The notes under the pieces are model-generated. The model was given only the letters and a program-made list of their open reading frames with translations, was not told the origin of the DNA and ran no database searches. From Linnemannia elongata (lineage: Eukaryota; Mortierellomycota; Mortierellomycetes; Mortierellales; Mortierellaceae), in assembly GCA_036320915.1 (NCBI GenBank), contig JAXBDG010000013.1, forward strand, positions 620,001 to 684,000: a stretch of DNA of 64,000 bases, given 5' to 3'. Positions 5,251-45,200 of this stretch are shown here, one piece after another. Position 1 is the stretch's first letter. Each line of letters starts with the position of its first letter. The position numbers and the translations under genes are program-made.

Positions 5251-5689
5251 TATAGATATTTCTCAATAGAGTCATGATTTAGACATGTCGGGAGGCGTGC
5301 GCAGTAGTGATGACGGCGAATACTTTTATTTGTCAATGAATGGCAAAAAACATACTCAGAGTGAATTAGGGGAATGGGGAGAATGCAAAAAATACTAGGC
5401 TTCTATGGTACAGCAAAACAAAATGATGGCAACAAAACAGACAGATACAAACGACAGATGACAAACAAATGATGAAAATGAAAGTGATAAGCAGCTCAAA
5501 CAACGACAATAACAACAAACAAATACAAACAGAACAAAGGAATAAAACTAAACAATAACAAGAGGAATAACAAATATAAGAGGGGTAACATAAAGCCGGG
5601 TGGGGGAATAGGAAAGGGGTTGGCCGCGGCGATAGGATATAGTAGGAAAGAAGGCGGCAAAAGGTCACCGCGTGAGCCTGTGATACCTC
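5251..5689. other. Convergent 3' spacer between Zim17 and BUB2
   Basis: 439 nt of A-rich sequence (5400-5580 is dominated by 'acaaa' and 'aacaa' units on the plus strand). It should hold the 3' untranslated regions of both genes. No gene is visible. Confidence 0.6.
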
Positions 5690-7886
5690 CTACCAACCAA
5701 TTTTCTCGGCAACGGTAGGATCATAAGGGTGACGAACCAGAAGGTCATACAGCTCGTCCGGCAAGAGTTTGACCATCCGGATCGTCTCCCTGATCACTTT
5801 GTCCGCGTCCAGATCCGGGAAGATTCTCAATAGCTTCATCGGACTATTAGGGTGAATGAGTAGGGTAATTAATAAGTAACAAGTTTGTTAGCTGAGCTGC
5901 GACTAGCAGTTAACAGATACGATGGAACACAAAACGAGAAAATAGTTCAAAAAAAAGTGCTCACCTGGCATGGCTCATGAGTTCGTCGCGGATCAAGTAC
6001 AGCTGGGCAATGATGCAAATGATGTTGAGATGGATGCCCCAGGCAAGCAGAAAATCCCAGAGCTGCATAACTTGATCCAGAGGTGGCGTGCATGCACAGA
6101 TCGTAAGCACCGCTACAGGAAGAAAAATACCCCAAAGTGAGGCAAACAAATATAAAAAGATCATAAACGAGGCGTGATTTAGCGGGTTAGTGAGAGTGAT
6201 ACCTTTTGACAACACTGACAACTACAACTCGGAGGAATTTTGGCGCGAATGTATGGACGATTGAAACTTACAAGGGAAGGCATAGAGCTCTGCCGAGAGT
6301 CGCTTGGACTTGAGGTAATCGTACAACTGGACATCAATCTTGCAGAGACACTCTTCCAGCAGCTGATGGGATTGATCAATCATGAACCAACAGTCGACGT
6401 ATGAGGTTAGTGATCAGTGAAACTAATAAACTCGTCGACGTAAACGCCACCAAAATTTCAAAAACACGTCGACTGGATGTGTACCTTGATGCCGCAGTGG
6501 ACGCCTTGAAGTGTTGGTTGGACATAGAGTGGACAGCAGTTCTTGATAAAGTTGGAGTACGAGTAAAAAGCCTCCATCTCCGTCATCGTGTACAGGAATG
6601 GAGCGGCCAGCACGTTCATGCCCTGTACATATGTGAACGACACATCCGTATCTTGAACCGAGGTTGCTAATATTACAAATGTTGGTGATGGTAAGCAAAA
6701 GTTAGTGTGAGATGAAAGGAAAACGAGCCTGTCATTGTAAGGCGTAGATGCATTATGGCACGTATTAACACATAAAGGAGTAGCAAAATTTCATCCGAAC
6801 AAATAAGAAAAGGTAGTAGCAGCCATTCATTCTTACCTTGGGTACTCCAGGCAAAAGCGCACAGGACGCGGATCAAACTATCCTCCTCGACCACATCCAA
6901 GAACTTACGGTCCGTCGCCAGGGTCCGGAAAGTGTCATTTCGGATCTTGCTGTACTCTTGCGGCTTGCCCTGTTTGACCAAGGAAATGTACTCTTGTGCC
7001 GAGACATGGTGGACCTCGAGGAGTAACTTCCAGACCTTACTTCTGATTGTCGGTTTGTTGGGTTTTGCCTTTGGCATCATTGGCTAAAAAAATGTATGAA
7101 AGATAAACACATACATACAAGATAGCAGTAAGGTATTATCCAGAGAAAGAGAGAGAAGCGAAAAAAAGTAAAGAAGATTAGTTTTTGAGAACGCGAATTG
7201 AGGATGCGGGTATAATATGGACACTTCCTTCCTCTCCCCTCTCCGAACCCATAGCAGTAAAAGAAGACGCTTATGAAGTGCATTAATGTGCACATTTTTG
7301 GCACAAGCGGGTTGCAAAAGGTTGATCCCACACAACTCTTTCGCTTCATACACATCTCACCCAAAGAGTGTAATAATACCCTGGAGGATAACAAAATGAG
7401 TAATGTTACGGATTGGTAGTGTTCGCTTGCTACTGGAAATGGGTGTATGAGCAGCTATGACTTTATCCAACTCGTCTGTCTTTTCTCACACCACAAACAC
7501 ATATCCCCTTCAATTGTTGTGTGCGCAAAAAGAACAAATGATGACACCGAACAATGGGGAGAGCATGTAAGGAGAGGACAACCAAACAAAAAAAAATATC
7601 TCACGGTGTGCAAAGGCCGCCTTCAGCTTCCCCCCTAAGTGGCCTTTCTCTCTATCCCCCTCTTTGTTACGCTTGCACTTCCCGTTGACGTTGTTGATTT
7701 TTTTTTTTTTTGGTTTGTTCTATGGAAGCATAGATCTCGGCGCAAGTGCCTGCAACCCAAGAACAAAACATATCAAAACGCAACTCCAACACCATTCTGC
7801 GTCAAAGAGTCGAATCCCTTTTTTTTTTGGCGAACAAACGGGGGGCAGTGTAAAGGGGAGGCGAGAAGGAAATCTTTGAGAAAACC

Positions 7887-7924
<38 letters not shown>

Positions 7925-8640
7925 CCTCGTCGCCTCCCGTAACACGAAACAGATTGTTACTGAAATTGCTAATTGAATTCCCTCCCTGTTTAGTATTTTC
8001 TTCTTGGCTCCTCAGGGAACGAATCGCCTGAACTTCTAGTTCTCTTTTGTTTTATTTGGTCCTGGGCTCTTTCTTTACGTTTCCCTTCCCACTCCTTTTT
8101 TATACTTTTCATACTTTTTGTCCTACGACACACAACCGAGGCAAATATTTCAAGGGATAGAGAGTAAAAAAAAAAGGAATATGAAGCAAGTTGAAAAAAA
8201 ATACGGATGTATATGTGGGGAGCAGTAGACAAGCAAGCATGCAAGGAAATAAGAGGAAAGATAACTGAGCACGATCCACTCTTTTTGTACCACCATAGAG
8301 ACGAAGGGGGTGGTCCCCTTGTGCCCCATGGTCCGAGTCACACTTTCTTCCCTGATTTTTTTGTGAGATGGAGAAAAAAAAATGAAAGATAGATACGCTT
8401 GCAATCAATGAGCGATTGAAGCAAGGAAGAACAACATGCGGTGGTTCATCCATGCATGAATAAAAAATTAGACCGTTATAGGAAGAACCACGCGCAGACT
8501 CACAAACGAAACGTAAAAAAAGCAAAAAAGTATGAAAGAAACGAAAGAGTGCACGGGGCCCTCGGTTGAAAGGGCCAGGAAGTGAACTAACGAGTGGTAA
8601 AAACATGCACACGATGAACACGATGACAACAACAATGACC

Positions 8641-36852: not shown

Positions 36853-37092
36853 GGTCCCTTATGTGTGAGTAGGTGCCTGGTGGAGTGAAGAAGGGGGGAA
36901 GGATGACAAGCAAGTCAAAAAGAGAGATGATGTAGCGAGATATCGACAGGAGGAGTGCACAAGAGTCGTGTCGAATAGGGTTTATATCTGAAAGCCGTCC
37001 GGCTGCAGGACAATTGGCGCCAAAATGACGTCACCGGAGTGGCGTCATCGTGGAACTAATCCCCACAATCCAGCACTAATGCGTGGTTTCAT
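36853..37092. promoter_or_regulatory. Short spacer with CRE-like palindrome and hairpin
   Basis: 240 nt separate the stop of the nuclease-fusion gene from the AP-1 gamma start. At 37025-37048, ATGACGTCAC-CGGA-GTGGCGTCAT forms a 10-bp inverted repeat with a 4-nt loop and one wobble. Its left half contains TGACGTCA (37026-37033), the consensus for CREB/ATF bZIP factors; the right half is a one-base variant. It may be a promoter element of AP-1 gamma or a structured 3' RNA element of the upstream gene. Confidence 0.6.
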
Positions 37093-40000
37093 TCACGCGT
37101 AAAAATCTAGTCTAAGCTCGGGTCGATTTGCCCTCCTGCCCTTTTCCTGACTGGAAACTGTGGAAGCCCTCTTACGACGTGACGGGGCGCGACTGGAAGA
37201 CCTGCTGCTGCTTGCTGCCGTGGCGCTGCTTGTCGCCGTACTGCTTGCCGCCGTGGTACTGCTTGCTGCCATGTTGCTTGAACTTGTACTGGAACTCGCC
37301 ATCCATGGGTATGATCCATCTGCTGCAAGCGGCTGCAGGTGCTTGGGCCTCTCGAAGGTCTTGAGCCGGTGTAGAACAATCTCGCACATGTTCTGAGCAG
37401 CCATCGTGTCACGATGAAAGTACCGCTTGCACGAGTAGCAATAAAAACTCCGAAGGGTCACTTGCGCAATGAACTCGGTACATCGGGGGCACTTCTTCGA
37501 TGTGTAGTATTCATTAATACCGACTACGACATAGCCTAGGGAGCGCACCTAAACATTGAGAGTCAAAGAGTACATTAGTTTTCAACACTTGAATTATATC
37601 AGCGATGTTATCAACGACTTTGATGACAAAGGCTTACCGTTTGGACAAAGTACGAGAGAAATGTGGAGTGCAATGTCGAAAGCTTGGAGTTGCTGGAAAA
37701 CTGGCCCAAGCCAACTCCAAACAAAATGGGATCCTTATCCTCATTGTCTTCGACTCGTCGACCAAGACTTCCTCCAACCACATTCAGCAACCTCTCGGCA
37801 AGGGCCTGATATTCTGCTTGCTTGGCCCTCTCCAAGTCCCACGCATGCTTCTTGTAACGATTGTCATCCCCAGCATAGAACTTCTTCAGACGTGTCTCAA
37901 CCAGCTCCAACTCCTCCACATAGTTCATAACGCTTCCTGACTGTCCTCTCAGGGGTGGCAAACGGGACTCAAGATCCGCAACAGACTCCTCTTCACCTTC
38001 AGGAGTCACCCCCTTCTCGTACTCGAGCCACCTACGATGTCGAAATACTGGCTGGTAGATAGCCTTCTGCTTAACAGCCAGATTGTAGAAGGGAGGCTGG
38101 GATGAGTCGCCACGCGGATCCGTTACTGGGTCATGAACGGGAGTCGAGACCAGATCTGGCACTGTAAATGGGTTGGTCATCAGTTCATCTGCTGCCTCCT
38201 GACAAGACAAAACGATACCCTCCATGCACAAGCCCCCAGTTGCTTTCTCCTTGCCCTTGCACTCATCGTCCAGATCCTTAGGCAAATACGCAAAGCCACC
38301 GACCACGCAAACTTGACCGCCATCCAAGGTAACGATCTTCATGTCATCTACGTTCTTTCCTGGCCACAACTTGGCGATGTCCTCCTTGGACTGAATGACG
38401 TTGCGGATTTCAGAGAGGTAATAGTCGGACCCGGCAACCGTGGTAGTCAGCCTTGGAGGGAGATCATCCTCGGGTAATCTCCTGAACCGCGCATCTTGAC
38501 GCTCTCGAAGCTTAAAAGCAGTGAGCTGGAGTCTAAATCCATCCGTTCGTAGTGATCCATGGGGTATGTAGCCCTTTTGGTGATAGTCCTTGGGCTTCGT
38601 ACGCTCAACAAATTGAAGGTGATCCTGAATCTCACTCAACGACCGAAGATTGATTGCGGCGCGGTGTCCAGTTTTGCGCCTCTGTCGGTTCGACAGGCCG
38701 GTGGGATCGATGTCGCAGACGAAATTCTTGATTATAAATCCCGGCTCCTTCCCACCGATCCAGGTTTCCAGGTCATTTGTTGAAGTAACAGTGGCGGGGT
38801 TGTCCTGGTCCAATGAAGCCAACTCCACCAGCCTCTGCCGCAACGAGTCTCGCTTCCAAAAGAAGCTAGCCAGTTCTCTCTCTGAAAAAGTAACAAATCC
38901 CTGCTGCGACGAGGTGAGGGGTGTGATCCGCCACTTGTTTGGATGCATGTCGTTGAGAGCAATGAAATTTTCCGCTGCTGATATGTTTTCCTGAATGCTG
39001 AAGTCGATATATGCCTCAACTTGCCCCTTGTCCTTCAGAGTGCACACCTACAATAAAACAGATAAACATCAGTTATATGCTTGCTTGTAATGAGGACCTC
39101 TATTAGAGTAATCGTCAATGGGAATCATATCATTACCTTATCGTACAACAAATGGGTTCCATTACGATAATGCTTCTTGAGTTCAACAGAAAGCTGACTA
39201 GCCGTGGACCGCACCAGCATGCTCGGCGTGAACGACATACTGACATTGATCTCGCCTCGATTCCGAGAGGCATCGAATAGTTCAAGGTCGACCAAGATCC
39301 CGACAAACTTGTCGACTGCTTTACCCATAGCAGAGTTTTTGTTGGGAAGATTCTCCGAGTATAGGTACGTCAAAAAGGTCTCAAGGAACTTCACACATTT
39401 GTCGGTCTCCTCATCAAGATCCGATTGGCCAGCATCCTTCTGACCGCCGTCGAGTCCATTATCTTTGTCAACTTTGGGCTTGATCCTCTCGCAGAGAAAA
39501 TCCAGAACCACTCGCTCATCATCCGATACCGCCTCGCGTCTCGCCTTTAACCGATCAGACTCCAACAAAGCCTCGCCATTTTTCTTTCTCCTAGCCTCGA
39601 CCACCGCATCCTCAATACGAGTCCGCAACGTCTCCAGAAAGCGACCAATAAGGCGTTGGGCCTTCCTCTTGATGTCCACTGCCAGTTGGGAACCCTCCTT
39701 CAGACATTTCGCCACCTCCCCCTGCAGCTCCGGCGAAAGCGACGACACTCGCCTAGTGTTAGCCTCCAACGTTCCGACCTCAAGAGAAACTGTGGGATGA
39801 TGCCAGCCGAGTGACTTAGAGAGCCTCTGCTTGTCAGTCATCTTGGATGCCCTCAGGCCAGCAGCAGATGGTGCCTTGTCCGACTTCTGCTTGTCTTTGC
39901 TGTCCGTGGTGTCAGTGGTGGGTGAGTCACTTATGGAATGGGACATCGCCTTGGGAGCCTTCCACGCGAGCTGCTTGGCTCTTGCAGGAGGCTCATGGCT

Positions 40001-41440
40001 CACGCTCCCCTGGTATCGCTTGAAAGAAAACCGTTGGCTGTGTCGGGGTATTCGTGTCCTAGGCAGTGCTGGATGGCCAAGGTTTTCCTGACCCAAAGGA
40101 GTAAAAGTAGGCTCCTGGGGGAAGCCGGGCTGATGCTCTGAAGGGGTTCCAGAGGCCTTGGAGATCTGTCTTGGCGATTCCACAGTACGGTAGCGATTCC
40201 AGGATCTTGGCACTCGCAGACGTATAATCTCATCACTGGTTTCTCTATATTATTAATCAAGTGTAATGAGAAATAATTCACATGATTGCTTCCTCAAAAT
40301 AAGCTTTGCAAATTATCAGTGAAAATACCTCAGATGCAGCTCCTGTATACGGATGCGTTTGAGCTCGTTATGCCGGGTACACAGATCCTTGAAGTGAAGA
40401 TGCAGTTGCTCATACAGGGTCTGAGCATCTGATGTGGAATCGACTCTGTTAAGTTTTGTTTGACGCTTGTCGATAAACACGCGAATAGAGTCCTCAAACT
40501 CCTTCTTTTCCTTGTTTTTCGAGATGACTCGAGTGTCCGCCAGATAGCTGTGCACCACCTCCTTAGGGTCTATATAATAAAAAAGAAAGACATTAAGCGC
40601 AGTTAGTTCTCAATGTAAAGATAGCAAGAACATTCAGACCTGGAAATAGAAACATATTCGATCATTACCCATGCTGTTGATGGACTTGACAATAGAGAAG
40701 TTCGTGGCTGGACCAAGAGACCAAATATTCTTGTTGTAATCGTTTTTGGACACTACTGCAAGTGCGGTGAGCTGAGCGCGGGTGATGCCGAGGGCCAAGA
40801 GGAGGTCAGGGATGGAGTAAACCAGGATCATGTCGTTTGAAACGGGGCGCCACAAAGTCACGATAGATCCATAGGCGAGCATATCTGAATCACGGGAGAT
40901 GATAATGTCCTCTGGGTTTGCGTCGATAGCGATTGCCAAGTCAGCCTCTGTTGCCACAACCTGGACTGTCCAGCCTCGTTCTGTCATATAATCCGCAAAG
41001 CTCCTCCGGCTCTCCATCGACCAGTAGAAGGAGGAGGCTAAACCTGAGCGGACGTCGGCAAAATGGCGTTTTCTAAGACGTTGATTGTTGTCGATGCGTG
41101 ATTCGAGAGTGGTTAGGCTCGTTGCTGTTTGCTCCAGAGCTTTCTCTCGCCGTTTTTGGCGCTCGGCTGCGGTCTCACTCTTCTCCATGGCCGGGTCCCC
41201 ATCAATGTAAAGAGTCATGTTCAACGCCGTTCCGAACCGACTGACTTCCTTCTCCAGACTGCGGTGGGCGGCGTCTTGCGACATGTTGGAGTAAGAGCTC
41301 CTGATGACATTATAGCACGACCCAAGAACATCCAGTCGCCGTCGACCGTTGGTGATGATGCTCGCGAGTATTGATCGGTAAAGTTGGACAGGTGTGTAGC
41401 CCTTGCGTCGAATGAAAGGGTACCAGTCGAATAGTCCCAT
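37093..41440 (-). CDS. Fusion nuclease: XPG/FEN1-type domain plus Fanzor (eukaryotic TnpB) RuvC domain
   Basis: Five exons (41440-40669, 40569-40329, 40244-39137, 39047-37638, 37548-37093) with agreeing phases 1, 2, 0, 0; 1328 residues. Exons 1-2 hold an XPG/Rad2 nuclease: MGLFDWYPFIRRKGY, 'RRLDVLGSCY' (D37), 'YIDGDP' (D80), 'TEADLAIA' (E165, D167), 'SRDSDMLAYGS' (D184, D186) and helix-hairpin part 'VVSKNDYNKNIWSLGP' (D234). Exon 3 is a basic, helical linker. Exons 4-5 match Fanzor/TnpB: 'GSLRTDGFRLQL', RuvC-I 'IVTLDGGQVCVVG' (D949), 'PILFGVGLGQFSSNSK', 'GINEYYTSKKCPRC' (E1190, C1197, C1200), 'FYCYSCKRYFHRDTMAAQN' (C1214, C1217, D1224). Fanzors are omega-RNA-guided DNA nucleases. The tail is Ala/Ser-rich with a basic NLS-like 'APSRRKRAST'. 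Domain calls are by motif; activity and RNA partner are inferred. Confidence 0.88.
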
Positions 41441-42214
41441 TATGAAGGATACTTCATGTGATGGAAGTAATGGATGTGTCGTAAAAGGACTTGGGGAAGT
41501 AGAAAGAAAAAGAAAAAGTAGGTCGAATAAGAGCTCAAAAGCAGTGAATAAAGATACTGGGTCAAATGATTGTGCCGATATTCAATGTAATTTAGTGTCA
41601 ATTGACAGTAACTGCCGATCCATATTAGGAAATATTTCATGCATAGCTTCAGCCAATAAGAGAATTATGGCGTCCATTGTCCTGCACCCAGCCGTCCCAG
41701 TGACGGCATGGGAGATCTACTGGTCGCTATCACTGGTTCATTTAAGCCAAAAGCGCTGGACGCGTTTTCTTTGGTTCTCCAATTTCCTTTCTCCTTTCCC
41801 TCCACTCGTTCACCTCCCCTCCTCTCCTCAGCTGCATCATTTTTTCATCCATCGCCCCTGTGGTGGCTTCGCACTCTTTCCGCCATTCCTCTTTTCATCA
41901 TTCGTGTATGAACAGCCTTCAGTCAGATATTGCAGCGGCGCCTCCTCTGACACCAACATCCTCTGCTGAACTTGATACTTTGAGGCCCCAACCTGGCTTC
42001 CCATTTTGTGACTGCATTCAGCGTAAACAAAAAGAACGCGTTTCGACTTCTTTGGCCACTCCTTTTTTTTATTTCTTTTTTTCTTTACACTCACACTTAC
42101 ACTGGTACTCTCGTTCACCCTCATAAAAACTCGCCTAATCTCGTCTTATCATAGCCCTCCTACCCAGCAGCACACATTCAACGCATAGGAGTGACAAGCT
42201 AACGTTATTTCACC
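41441..42214. promoter_or_regulatory. Divergent upstream region, fusion nuclease (-) / coiled-coil protein (+)
   Basis: 774 nt. The part near 42120-42214 is pyrimidine-rich on the plus strand; the part near 41480-41520 is purine-rich, so pyrimidine-rich for the minus-strand gene. No transposon-like terminal repeats were noticed. Confidence 0.5.
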
Positions 42215-45200
42215 ATGGGGTCGCATCACCTAACAACAGATGCCTTCAGCGCCATTCCTCTCCCACCTACGCAGTTACATTCACGCCCTCCTACCAACAC
42301 AAACGCATCACTCCAAGCCGCCTCAACCACCACCAACGGATACTTTACACCTTTGCCGGAGCAGCCAGACACTAGTGTCATCAAGAAAGAAGCCAAGACA
42401 CCTAAGGTGAAGAAGGATGGCGAACCACCCAAGGTCGGAAAGAAGCGAGGCCAGTACAAGAAGACCATTCTTCGGAAACAGGCCGAGGCCGAGGCGGCGG
42501 CTGCCGCTGCCGCTGCCGCCGCAGCCGCAGCAGCGGGGGTACCTTACATTACTCCCCGCCCTTTAAGTCCGATCGCTTCAACAGGGCTCCAACCGTCAAA
42601 AACTCACACGACATCATTACCGAGATCAGGGACGGCGAGCCACTCATCGACGATCGAAAGCCTTGCCGTCAAGTCGCAAAAGTCCCGGCACGAGACTCCT
42701 GTGGATCGCACAGCTTTGGAGATGGAGCAGGAGCTTGCCATGCTCGCAGAAGAGGCAGAGGAGGATAGAATACGTAGAGAGGAAGAGGCTGCGGATCGAA
42801 TTCTGAAGCGAGCCCAGGTTGTCAAGGTTAGTTGGACAAAGTCGTTTGATATATTTTAAACGAGCTGTGGTGTGGCTATACCAAACCACGAATCAAATGA
42901 CGTTCGACTTATCATGGCTCTCATTGAATTGAATACTCTTAGCATCTTCGATCACTCAAGTCCAAGCTGGCCACGGCACAGATTCAGATCGGGCATGACT
43001 TGCACTACCAGAGTGTGGATCTCTTTTCGCAACTCTACGACGAGGTTCTTGAAGATATCGGGAAGGACAACTCGGAGATGATGGAACTTCTGAAAAGCGC
43101 ACGCGAGCATGACGGAGAACCACAACCGGACCAAGAAGAGTCGACTCACAGTCACCCGGGACATATGCTGACACGATCCTCGGACAGACCCAAGAAGCAT
43201 GATCTCATCGCTGCACTATCCTCCCCTGCCCCCTTTCCTTCCCGGAGTCAGTTCTCGGATTCGCACAGCAGCTCATCTCGAAGGCTGGAATTTGAGGGCG
43301 GCTTTGATGACGATGGCATGAAGCTCAAGAGATATAGACGAGGAAGGAGCGATGGCCACTTCATTGGCCAGTCATGGGATGTCGGTTCGGGACAAGAAAA
43401 CGGATCTGTTGGAGCCAAGGCGACGACGTTGGGAAAATCGGGATTAAAGCACCAGGACAACGACGGCTCAAGCAAGTCAAAGGTTTATCACCTGGAGGAT
43501 GACGACACTGACGGCGACGATGACGAGGTTGGTATGTCGACGCCAAAGAGGCAGTGCGCCCTCGGGCCAAGGACACGTGAGGAGCTGCAACTTCGGCAGC
43601 GTCGAGAGCTGGAAGAGCTGCAGGCACAGCAACGCAAAGATCAGGAGGAGTTTCAGCGGAAGCAGTTAGATCAGCTCCGGGAGTTGCAGGAGAGGCACAA
43701 CGAGGAGTTTCACAAGTTCGAGGCGGCCAAGGCGAAGGTGTATCAGGAGCACCTGGATGGGCTTGCAGAGAAGCGCCTCAAGATCAGTCTGTCACAATAC
43801 CACCGCAACCACCAAGGCACACCTACCCGTCCAAAACAAAAGTCAGCATATTCCTCCTCGTCCCTCGCATACGAGTTTGAGAGCGGTTTCGATGCATACA
43901 ACAGCGATGCCTTGTCGTCTCCCTCCCGGTCACCATCTCCCCCGCCTCGACATATTTCGCAGCAGCCTCGACAGTCTCATCCTTCCGCGAGAACCCTTTC
44001 ATCGGTCATGGAGCAGTCGCACGCAGACAGGAGGACACTCTCGCCTGTGCCTATGACGAGTACTCCAAGGGCATCCAAGACACCCAGCAGTGTTCACCAG
44101 CTTCCCATGTCGACCATGACGATGGCATTGGCGGCGATGAACGAGAAGAAGAAGCAGCTGAAGCGGGCCAACAAAAAGCAGAGCGAGCACGAAAGAGCAG
44201 CGGAATTGTCTGAAAACGGAGGCTACTCCGGTGGCAGGCTCCAAAGTCCGCCTATTTGGAGTCAGAAGCGAGGGGCTGAGGAAGAGAGGGCCGAGGTCAA
44301 GCGGCGGGCATCATTTGTTAGTACAACATCGGAGTTCCTTTCGTCTACCACCACCGCCACCAACTCACGTCACATTCATCACTCATCAGAGCAGCACATT
44401 CATTCAGGACTTCAACAAGGGTCGCATAGATCCATCGACCAATCTTCACCATTTGCAGACCAAACTGAATTGCCACAGACACCGACACCCAAAGCCCGTG
44501 GCAGGAAGCGAAAGAATACTCAGGTTACCAGAGTGGTTCCAAACGACCAAGACGATTCTTCTCAGGAGACACCATCAAAGACGTCCATTGACTTTAACAA
44601 AGAGCTGCTGAGTCACTTTGACAACTGGAAGCCTGATGAGAAGACGGAGCACTTCTTCGACTTGGTGCTGAGCGATCCACCGGAGACCCATGTTGGCGAG
44701 GCCGATGTGGAGGGATTACTGAGTGTTGGACGGCGACCATCCGAGAGTGCATCAGGCGGTCAGGAAGGGAACGCGACTCCGACATCCAATGCCTTCCGGT
44801 GGTATCAAGAGCAGCAGAGACTGGCGGACGAATTGGCACAGCAACCCAAGATGACGCCGATGCGGCTCAATGGCGAGAATGGCAAAGGAGCCACCATCCC
44901 TGCAGTGTCTGCTCCCATGTCTGTCGCTGGCGACCAGACTCACGGTGGATCACCCTTTGCACAGGGACTTGTACCCGGCGAGGATCCGCTGGCGGCCTTT
45001 ATCGAGCCAGGCAAGAAAACGCGTCAAGTTCGAGGGACTTCGGGTCAAGACCACAACAAGCATGGACGAAGCGCCCCATCCACAAACGAAGATCAGCAGG
45101 GCGGCGTCCACGTCGGCGGTAGCAGTCAAGGAGGCCAGAGTCACTTTATCACAGATTCATCCCCTTTCCTGGAGAACTCACCGATGGCGATGCTCTTTTC

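Follow-up and report, generated by a model that had tools for sequence, protein, structure and literature searches.

The stretch analyzed here, referred to as the window, comprises 64,000 nucleotides of the Linnemannia elongata assembly GCA_036320915.1 (contig JAXBDG010000013.1, positions 620,001 to 684,000), and all coordinates are those of the window. It contains a transposable element of 4689 bp (37001..41689) whose gene, on the minus strand, encodes an XPG/FEN1-type nuclease joined to a Fanzor-like nuclease. The five exons have GT-AG borders and join in frame into 1328 codons and a stop with no internal stop codon, the same join that had been proposed in a first-pass annotation of this DNA. 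Exon 1 (40669..41440) encodes residues 1 to 257, comprising the XPG/FEN1-type nuclease domain with D37, D80, E165, D167, D184, D186, and D234, and exon 2 (40329..40569) encodes the remainder of the XPG part (residues 258 to 337). Exon 3 (39137..40244; residues 338 to 707) contains a linker followed by the start of the Fanzor-like half, which was estimated from alignment to lie near residue 480. This half continues through exon 4 (37638..39047; residues 708 to 1177), which includes the RuvC aspartate D949 within a DGG motif, and exon 5 (37093..37548; residues 1178 to 1328 and the stop), which includes E1190, C1197, C1200, C1214, C1217, D1224, and a low-complexity tail. One gene almost certainly encodes the fusion of the two halves.

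The N-terminal part was predicted to adopt the FEN1/EXO1 fold, the outcome for which the first-pass annotation had proposed a structural comparison with FEN1. The full set of XPG/FEN1 acidic residues that had been claimed for this half is indeed present in the window copy at all seven positions, and we take these residues to bind metal as in FEN1. Among the 21 relatives described below, the exceptions at these positions were S37 in P0015, N184 in P0011, G184 in P0014 and P0016, and T234 in P0003, together with gaps in partial or shortened models. The segment NDYNKNIWSLGPATNFSIVKSI sits at the expected place of the H3TH and aligns to RAD2/XPG, with low model confidence at residues 233 to 240. 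Pfam XPG_I scored 17.7 bits against the window copy, under its cut-off of 24.9, and matched 11 of the 22 alignment members at an E value of ≤0.01 (best, 2.7e-6). Sequence identity of this half to FEN1/EXO1 is about 15 to 19%. Relative to the Rad2 enzymes (FEN1/EXO1/XPG), D167 replaces what is presumably the usual glutamate by FEN1 numbering, and the domain is fused to a nuclease of the RNA-guided type and borne on a transposon. On the predicted model, the N-terminal domain is a 5'-flap/exonuclease-type nuclease with the XPG/FEN1/EXO1 fold.

The C-terminal half exhibits a TNB zinc ribbon (PF07282; 41.9 bits against a cut-off of 26.3) with the CxxC...CxxC pattern present and a RuvC set consisting of D949, E1190, and D1224. 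The glutamate is in a rearranged position six residues ahead of the first CxxC (E1190-YYTSKK-C1197), which is described as a Fanzor hallmark (PMC10711439). The Fanzor RuvC and zinc ribbon motifs claimed at first pass therefore held up for the glutamate and the zinc ribbon and failed for the DPG motif, which reads DGG. The middle residue of this motif, in 111 matches from 110 of the 226 retrieved proteins, was A (38), G (33), L (33), M (4), P (2), or R (1). Because the DPG signature is missing, the C-terminal half was filed, on its sequence, as a divergent Fanzor-like branch rather than as Fanzor proper. For the full-length relative P0004, the NCBI guided TnpB model gave an E value of 2.8e-9 and the NCBI FEN1/Rad2 models gave 5e-4 and 4e-3, all below their curated cut-offs. 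Profiles of the Fanzor half searched against the PDB reached the TnpB-like L79 and LaTranC, the latter presumably TnpB-related, and nothing else apart from weak matches to one Cas12m chain and to a GrpE chain that is unrelated; the known Fanzor1 structures in the PDB were not reached by these sequence profiles. The C-terminal half is proposed to be an RNA-guided endonuclease of the TnpB/Fanzor kind, with RNA-guided cutting suggested by the family resemblance and by the conserved hairpin at the 3' end of the element.

Protein searches were conducted with the whole protein and with each half, in each case scoring the 7998 or 8000 candidates that shared the most words with the query. The whole-protein search produced 21 relatives, all named as genera of the Mortierellaceae, to which we take the genera other than Linnemannia to belong. 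The XPG residues and the zinc ribbon were found together in 11 of the 21 (P0002, P0004, P0005, P0006, P0008, P0009, P0010, P0011, P0012, P0014, and P0016), spanning the five genera Linnemannia, Podila, Haplosporangium, Gryganskiella, and Mortierella; these are proteins of the two-half kind that the first-pass annotation had suggested listing by a proteome search. The remaining 10 were partial, shortened, or split models, P0018 having the zinc ribbon and some XPG residues. All 14 key positions were intact in P0002, P0004, P0005, and P0009. Position D37 is absent from P0014 and P0016 and precedes the start of the P0008 model, and a zinc ligand is missing in P0006, P0010, and P0011. Distances between proteins in one half correlated with those in the other (Mantel r of 0.71, 0 of 5000 permutations, 16 proteins). 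Searching with the XPG half produced 87 proteins, every species-named one of which was from a mortierellomycete genus, and the 120 matches listed of the 159 obtained with the Fanzor half were nearly all from mortierellomycete genera or unnamed metagenome records. Restriction to the mortierellomycetes is thus the outcome of these searches and not proof. With respect to a viral origin, two tblastn scans of viral contigs found no relative, a distant one still being possible.

The ratio of nonsynonymous to synonymous substitution rates (dN/dS) in XPG exon 1 was 0.12 to 0.14 between two subfamilies (dS of about 0.4) and 0.10 to 0.36 in closer pairs. For the Fanzor half it was 0.16 to 0.55 in seven close copy pairs (dS of 0.02 to 0.09) and 0.08 in one pair with saturated dS, with dS unmeasurable in the remaining pairs. 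Purifying selection thus acts on both halves, with a less clean demonstration for the Fanzor half. As judged from these comparisons, the fusion appears to be real and old. The XPG/FEN1 plus Fanzor architecture of the first-pass annotation is borne out by sequence, conservation, and selection, with support from the fold for the N-terminal part only.

The ends of the element were set by alignment of other genomic copies, which diverge beyond them. On both sides the window copy is bordered by an 8-bp target-site duplication, AGCCGTCC, at 36993..37000 on the gene 3' side and 41690..41697 on the gene 5' side. The terminal inverted repeat lies at 37001..37026 on the plus strand (gene 3' end; GGCTGCAGGACAATTGGCGCCAAAAT) and at 41664..41689 on the minus strand (gene 5' end; GGGTGCAGGACAATGGACGCCATAAT, read outside-in). 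Its ends start with GG(C/G)TGCAGGACAAT, and the arms, of 31 nt, are 81% complementary. Perfect duplications of 8 to 10 bp were found in 6 of 8 copies with both ends available; the near-identical copies L014 and L015, with an unreadable 5' end, are outside this count. Between the repeats the XPG-Fanzor gene is the sole long gene; all remaining frames, judged by length, are ≤189 residues from stop to stop. This places the fusion in a terminal-inverted-repeat transposon with no other long gene, a context that was absent from the first-pass annotation and that allows a likely purpose of the fusion to be proposed. The insertion lies approximately 0.5 kb ahead of the next long plus-strand reading frame (42203-42859).

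Across the genome there were 54 TNB matches and 39 XPG matches. An XPG match was located upstream on the same strand for 34 of the 54 TNB matches, and a TNB match downstream for 35 of the 39 XPG matches (two of these 35 being pieces of one copy), with about 0.1 expected. Of the 20 TNB matches lacking XPG, 12 were examined in 10-kb stretches, and a profile search found no XPG in any of them; some were truncated members of the family and some belonged to other Fanzor families, and one XPG-only stretch was also seen. Exon 1 was 98 to 100% identical across seven copies including the window copy, indicating that the family was recently mobile. The terminal repeat matched at 44 places in the genome; for 32 of these an XPG or TNB match lay no more than 3 kb away, and for the other 12 it did not. 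No partner with a transposase was found in the 5 of these 12 solo repeat ends that were read, seven being unread and one genome being searched; two of the five were remnants with nested elements, and three were short similarities only. Mobility is probably provided by a transposase supplied in trans, and Fanzor elements without a transposase are known elsewhere and taken as non-autonomous (PMC3627910, PMC10711439).

Two bases outside the duplication, in the 5' flank, the window copy has CCGTCAC (41700..41706, minus strand), matching six of the seven letters of the family motif ACGTCAC. This place was common to the insertions: of the 20 whose 5' end could be read, 12 matched six or seven of the seven letters there and 14 matched five or more, L029 and L034 having five. 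The motif was derived from the same flanks on which it was counted, the controls being the 3' flanks and the other offsets. When the offset ranking second in mean score was used, a 6/7 match was present in none of the insertions, nor was one found on either strand within 40 bases in any of 13 3' flanks. ACGTCAC is close to the CRE site TGACGTCA, which we take to be bound by bZIP factors. The same letters occur at 37028-37034, where they form an invariant part of the element's 3' end, in addition to their place as target motif beyond the 5' end (41700-41706).

In each of seven representatives of subfamilies, the last 62 or so bases of the element, taken in gene sense, form one long hairpin, the loop being UNCG in most. 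In the window this candidate guide-RNA (omega/reRNA) scaffold, with a UNCG tetraloop, occupies 37001..37066 on the minus strand, with the terminal repeat forming its 3' strand. The z scores of the seven representatives were -2.65, -4.46, -3.29, -3.52, -3.70, -1.52, and -4.21, that is, ≤-2.65 in six of the seven. The 5' strand has diverged yet is largely complementary, with 81.5% of cells paired compared with 35.5 to 48% when the partner was slid, and double-sided changes were observed at 4 of 26 pairs. As a control, five folds of the element's 5' end gave no hairpin signal (z of -0.03 to 1.23), and an Rfam search produced no fitting family and one chance-level snoRNA match (E value of 0.91). 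An invariant segment of the hairpin, CGGTGACGT, is the reverse complement of ACGTCACCG, the chance of a 7-letter match in 62 bases being <1% as estimated by hand for a post hoc comparison. In the RNA, the invariant segment CGGUGACGU is complementary to the target motif ACGTCAC.

We next considered how such a protein might serve the element. In IS200/605 elements the preferred insertion motif is the target-adjacent motif (TAM), and excision places it beside the flank recorded by the guide, and cutting of the empty site follows (PMC11870625). The same geometry of motif and flank exists here. We propose that the 3' end of an expressed transcript folds into the scaffold hairpin and runs on into flanking host DNA, which would serve as the guide. 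The complex would then recognize a site free of the element, whether after excision or on a homologue or sister, through ACGTCAC in the 5' flank as TAM, and would cut it. The attached FEN1-type domain may trim either the 5' ends or the displaced strand and so bias repair toward copying from the element-bearing chromosome, with the outcome that the element is kept or multiplied, while movement itself would depend on the transposase supplied in trans. Retention through recutting of the empty site has been described for TnpB (PMC11870625), and for Fanzor it has been suggested as possible (PMC10432273). Cleavage by SpuFz1 leaves 5' overhangs (PMC10432273), and overhangs of that kind would be a sensible substrate for a FEN1/EXO1-type domain. 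We consider the whole chain, RNA-guided recutting of the empty site plus trimming that favors copying from the filled chromosome, about evenly poised between right and wrong.

Several findings weigh against this interpretation at one or another of its steps. At RuvC-I, the published Fanzor pattern has DPG followed by 120 to 160 residues to the glutamate (PMC10711439), whereas here the motif is DGG and D949 and E1190 are 241 residues apart. A catalytic residue is replaced in 3 of the 11 two-half relatives (P0011, P0014, and P0016), and D234 is missing from P0012. The perfect duplication is missing in 2 of the 8 copies, and the match at the common offset fell below 5/7 in 6 of the 20 insertions; among these six, L020, L022, L026, and L032 had no motif nearby and L058 and L021 had it shifted by 1 to 2 nt. 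Covariation in the hairpin is modest, shuffles reaching the observed value in 0, 88, 11, 110, and 7 of 500 trials for five measures; unaided RNAalifold retained 13 pairs, 2 with changes on both sides, and the longer 154-nt fold of the window copy was nonsignificant (z of -1.23). For Fanzor1 RNAs, the scaffold is predicted to include the duplication (PMC10711439), and if that were so here, the variable duplication would adjoin the guide, and ACGTCAC would be a preference of the transposase and not a TAM. The gene is also broken near exon 3/4 in some database models (P0017, P0019/P0169, and P0033/P0116), as would be expected if the locus yielded two proteins, one XPG-type and one Fanzor-like, through intron retention or separate transcripts, the joined protein being an artefact of gene prediction. 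We regard this as unlikely, as the splice sites are clean and in frame, joined gene models exist in 11 of the 21 relatives, and the coding middle between the halves is conserved, the four invariant columns of the alignment lying within residues 526 to 534. Stop codons in 13 of the 39 genomic XPG matches and the fragmentary state of several TNB matches could likewise point to an ordinary decayed transposon gene with a nonfunctional fusion. This is extremely improbable given that the frame is intact and under purifying selection, that joined proteins occur in five genera, and that recent copies are nearly identical; a chance exon join or pseudogene was rejected on the frame, the relatives, and the dN/dS results.

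Other divisions of labor between the halves were also weighed. The XPG-type half may mature the guide RNA, trimming a long 3' transcript, and leave the Fanzor-like half alone to handle DNA, which we think unlikely as well. Alternatively, the protein may be the mobility enzyme of the element itself, the RNA-guided half picking the target and the flap half opening or resolving the ends, in which case a separate transposase would not be involved. In favor of this, no other long gene lies between the terminal repeats, 32 of the 44 repeat matches are near XPG or TNB, the five other ends read had no transposase partner, and ACGTCACCG, to which the invariant hairpin segment is the reverse complement, contains ACGTCAC. 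Against this, an 8-bp duplication suits ordinary DDE transposases, seven solo repeat ends in the one genome searched were unread, and transposase-free Fanzor elements elsewhere are considered non-autonomous (PMC3627910, PMC10711439), making this quite improbable. A fully autonomous, transposase-free element, in which the two-nuclease protein and the 3'-end RNA would find the motif, cut, and process the ends in place of a transposase, with CGGUGACGU as the address, seems no more probable.

The proposed recutting of empty sites by the fusion would resemble TnpB retention and homing in IS200/IS605 (PMC11870625): insertion favors a motif on one flank, and, should the model hold, the guide would derive from the opposite flank and the empty site would be recut. 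It differs in that a eukaryotic terminal-repeat element is involved, the duplication lies between motif and element, and an extra end-processing domain is present. In common with Fanzor1 are the TNB zinc ribbon, the RuvC D-E-D set, the spacing of six residues from the glutamate to the first CxxC, and residence in a eukaryotic terminal-repeat transposon that has a 3' end predicted to be structured and lacks its own transposase. The protein departs from Fanzor1 in its extra N-terminal XPG/FEN1-type domain of about 335 residues, in DGG (DAG or DLG in relatives) for DPG, in the long D949-E1190 insert, and in its 1328 residues compared with mostly 600 to 700 (PMC11423790). Like the fungal Fanzor1 elements of Bao and Jurka (2013), it combines terminal repeats, a target duplication, and a Fanzor gene with no transposase; the duplication is 8 bp here and 9 bp in the MuDR-like Fanzor1 elements, and in Fanzor1 elements with GIY-YIG and restriction-type nucleases these are separate proteins, unlike the fused nuclease here (PMC3627910).

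Fanzors are eukaryotic relatives of Cas12, and Fanzor-type transposons themselves are known; what we rate as new is the addition of a further catalytic domain to such a transposon nuclease. The first-pass annotation knew of no described system with the XPG-Fanzor architecture, in agreement with a search of open-access full texts, most subscription papers including one large Fanzor survey being outside it, which found none joining Fanzor with XPG, Mortierella, or Mucoromycota, and none combining flap endonuclease, transposable element, and Mortierell. For the terms tried, the accessible parts of PMC3627910, PMC10432273, and PMC10711439 contain no mention of XPG-type or flap nucleases or of Mortierella. 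A natural, selected, and recently mobile family of this kind would exemplify a programmable cut coupled to end processing. It would also offer a handle on the open question of how Fanzors serve their transposons, the motif, the candidate scaffold, and the empty-site prediction being concrete and testable in a soil fungus. The automatic models P0017, P0019/P0169, and P0033/P0116, which divide the gene near exon 3/4, may have concealed the fusion from earlier surveys.

Further observations concern the copies and their surroundings. At C23:426391-434882 (G000), two XPG-Fanzor elements are arranged head to head with their XPG exons approximately 0.5 kb apart, and a further close pair, in tandem, was found at C4:908939-914459. 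Old copies of the element were apparently landing sites for nested pogo/Tigger-like elements at L057/L063 and L058/L062, with a hAT-like frame near one of them; going by the reading frames, L063 would carry a frame for a pogo/Tigger-like transposase, L062 one of hAT-like type, and L058 a pogo-like repeat. Outside the mortierellomycetes, P0171 from Apophysomyces sp. BC1021 is a relative of the Fanzor half on a contig of 1278 bases, consistent with horizontal transfer or contamination. In L040 (C17:164000-173999), an XPG-less Fanzor-type TNB match at approximately 5256-8450 lies a few kb downstream of a candidate transposase frame, which we take to be piggyBac-like from reading of the frame. XPG-less Fanzor-type TNB matches were also found near the starts of contigs C32, C6, and C3 (L041, L042, and L043), possibly in subtelomeric positions, each directly downstream of a similar reading frame of 557 to 562 residues.

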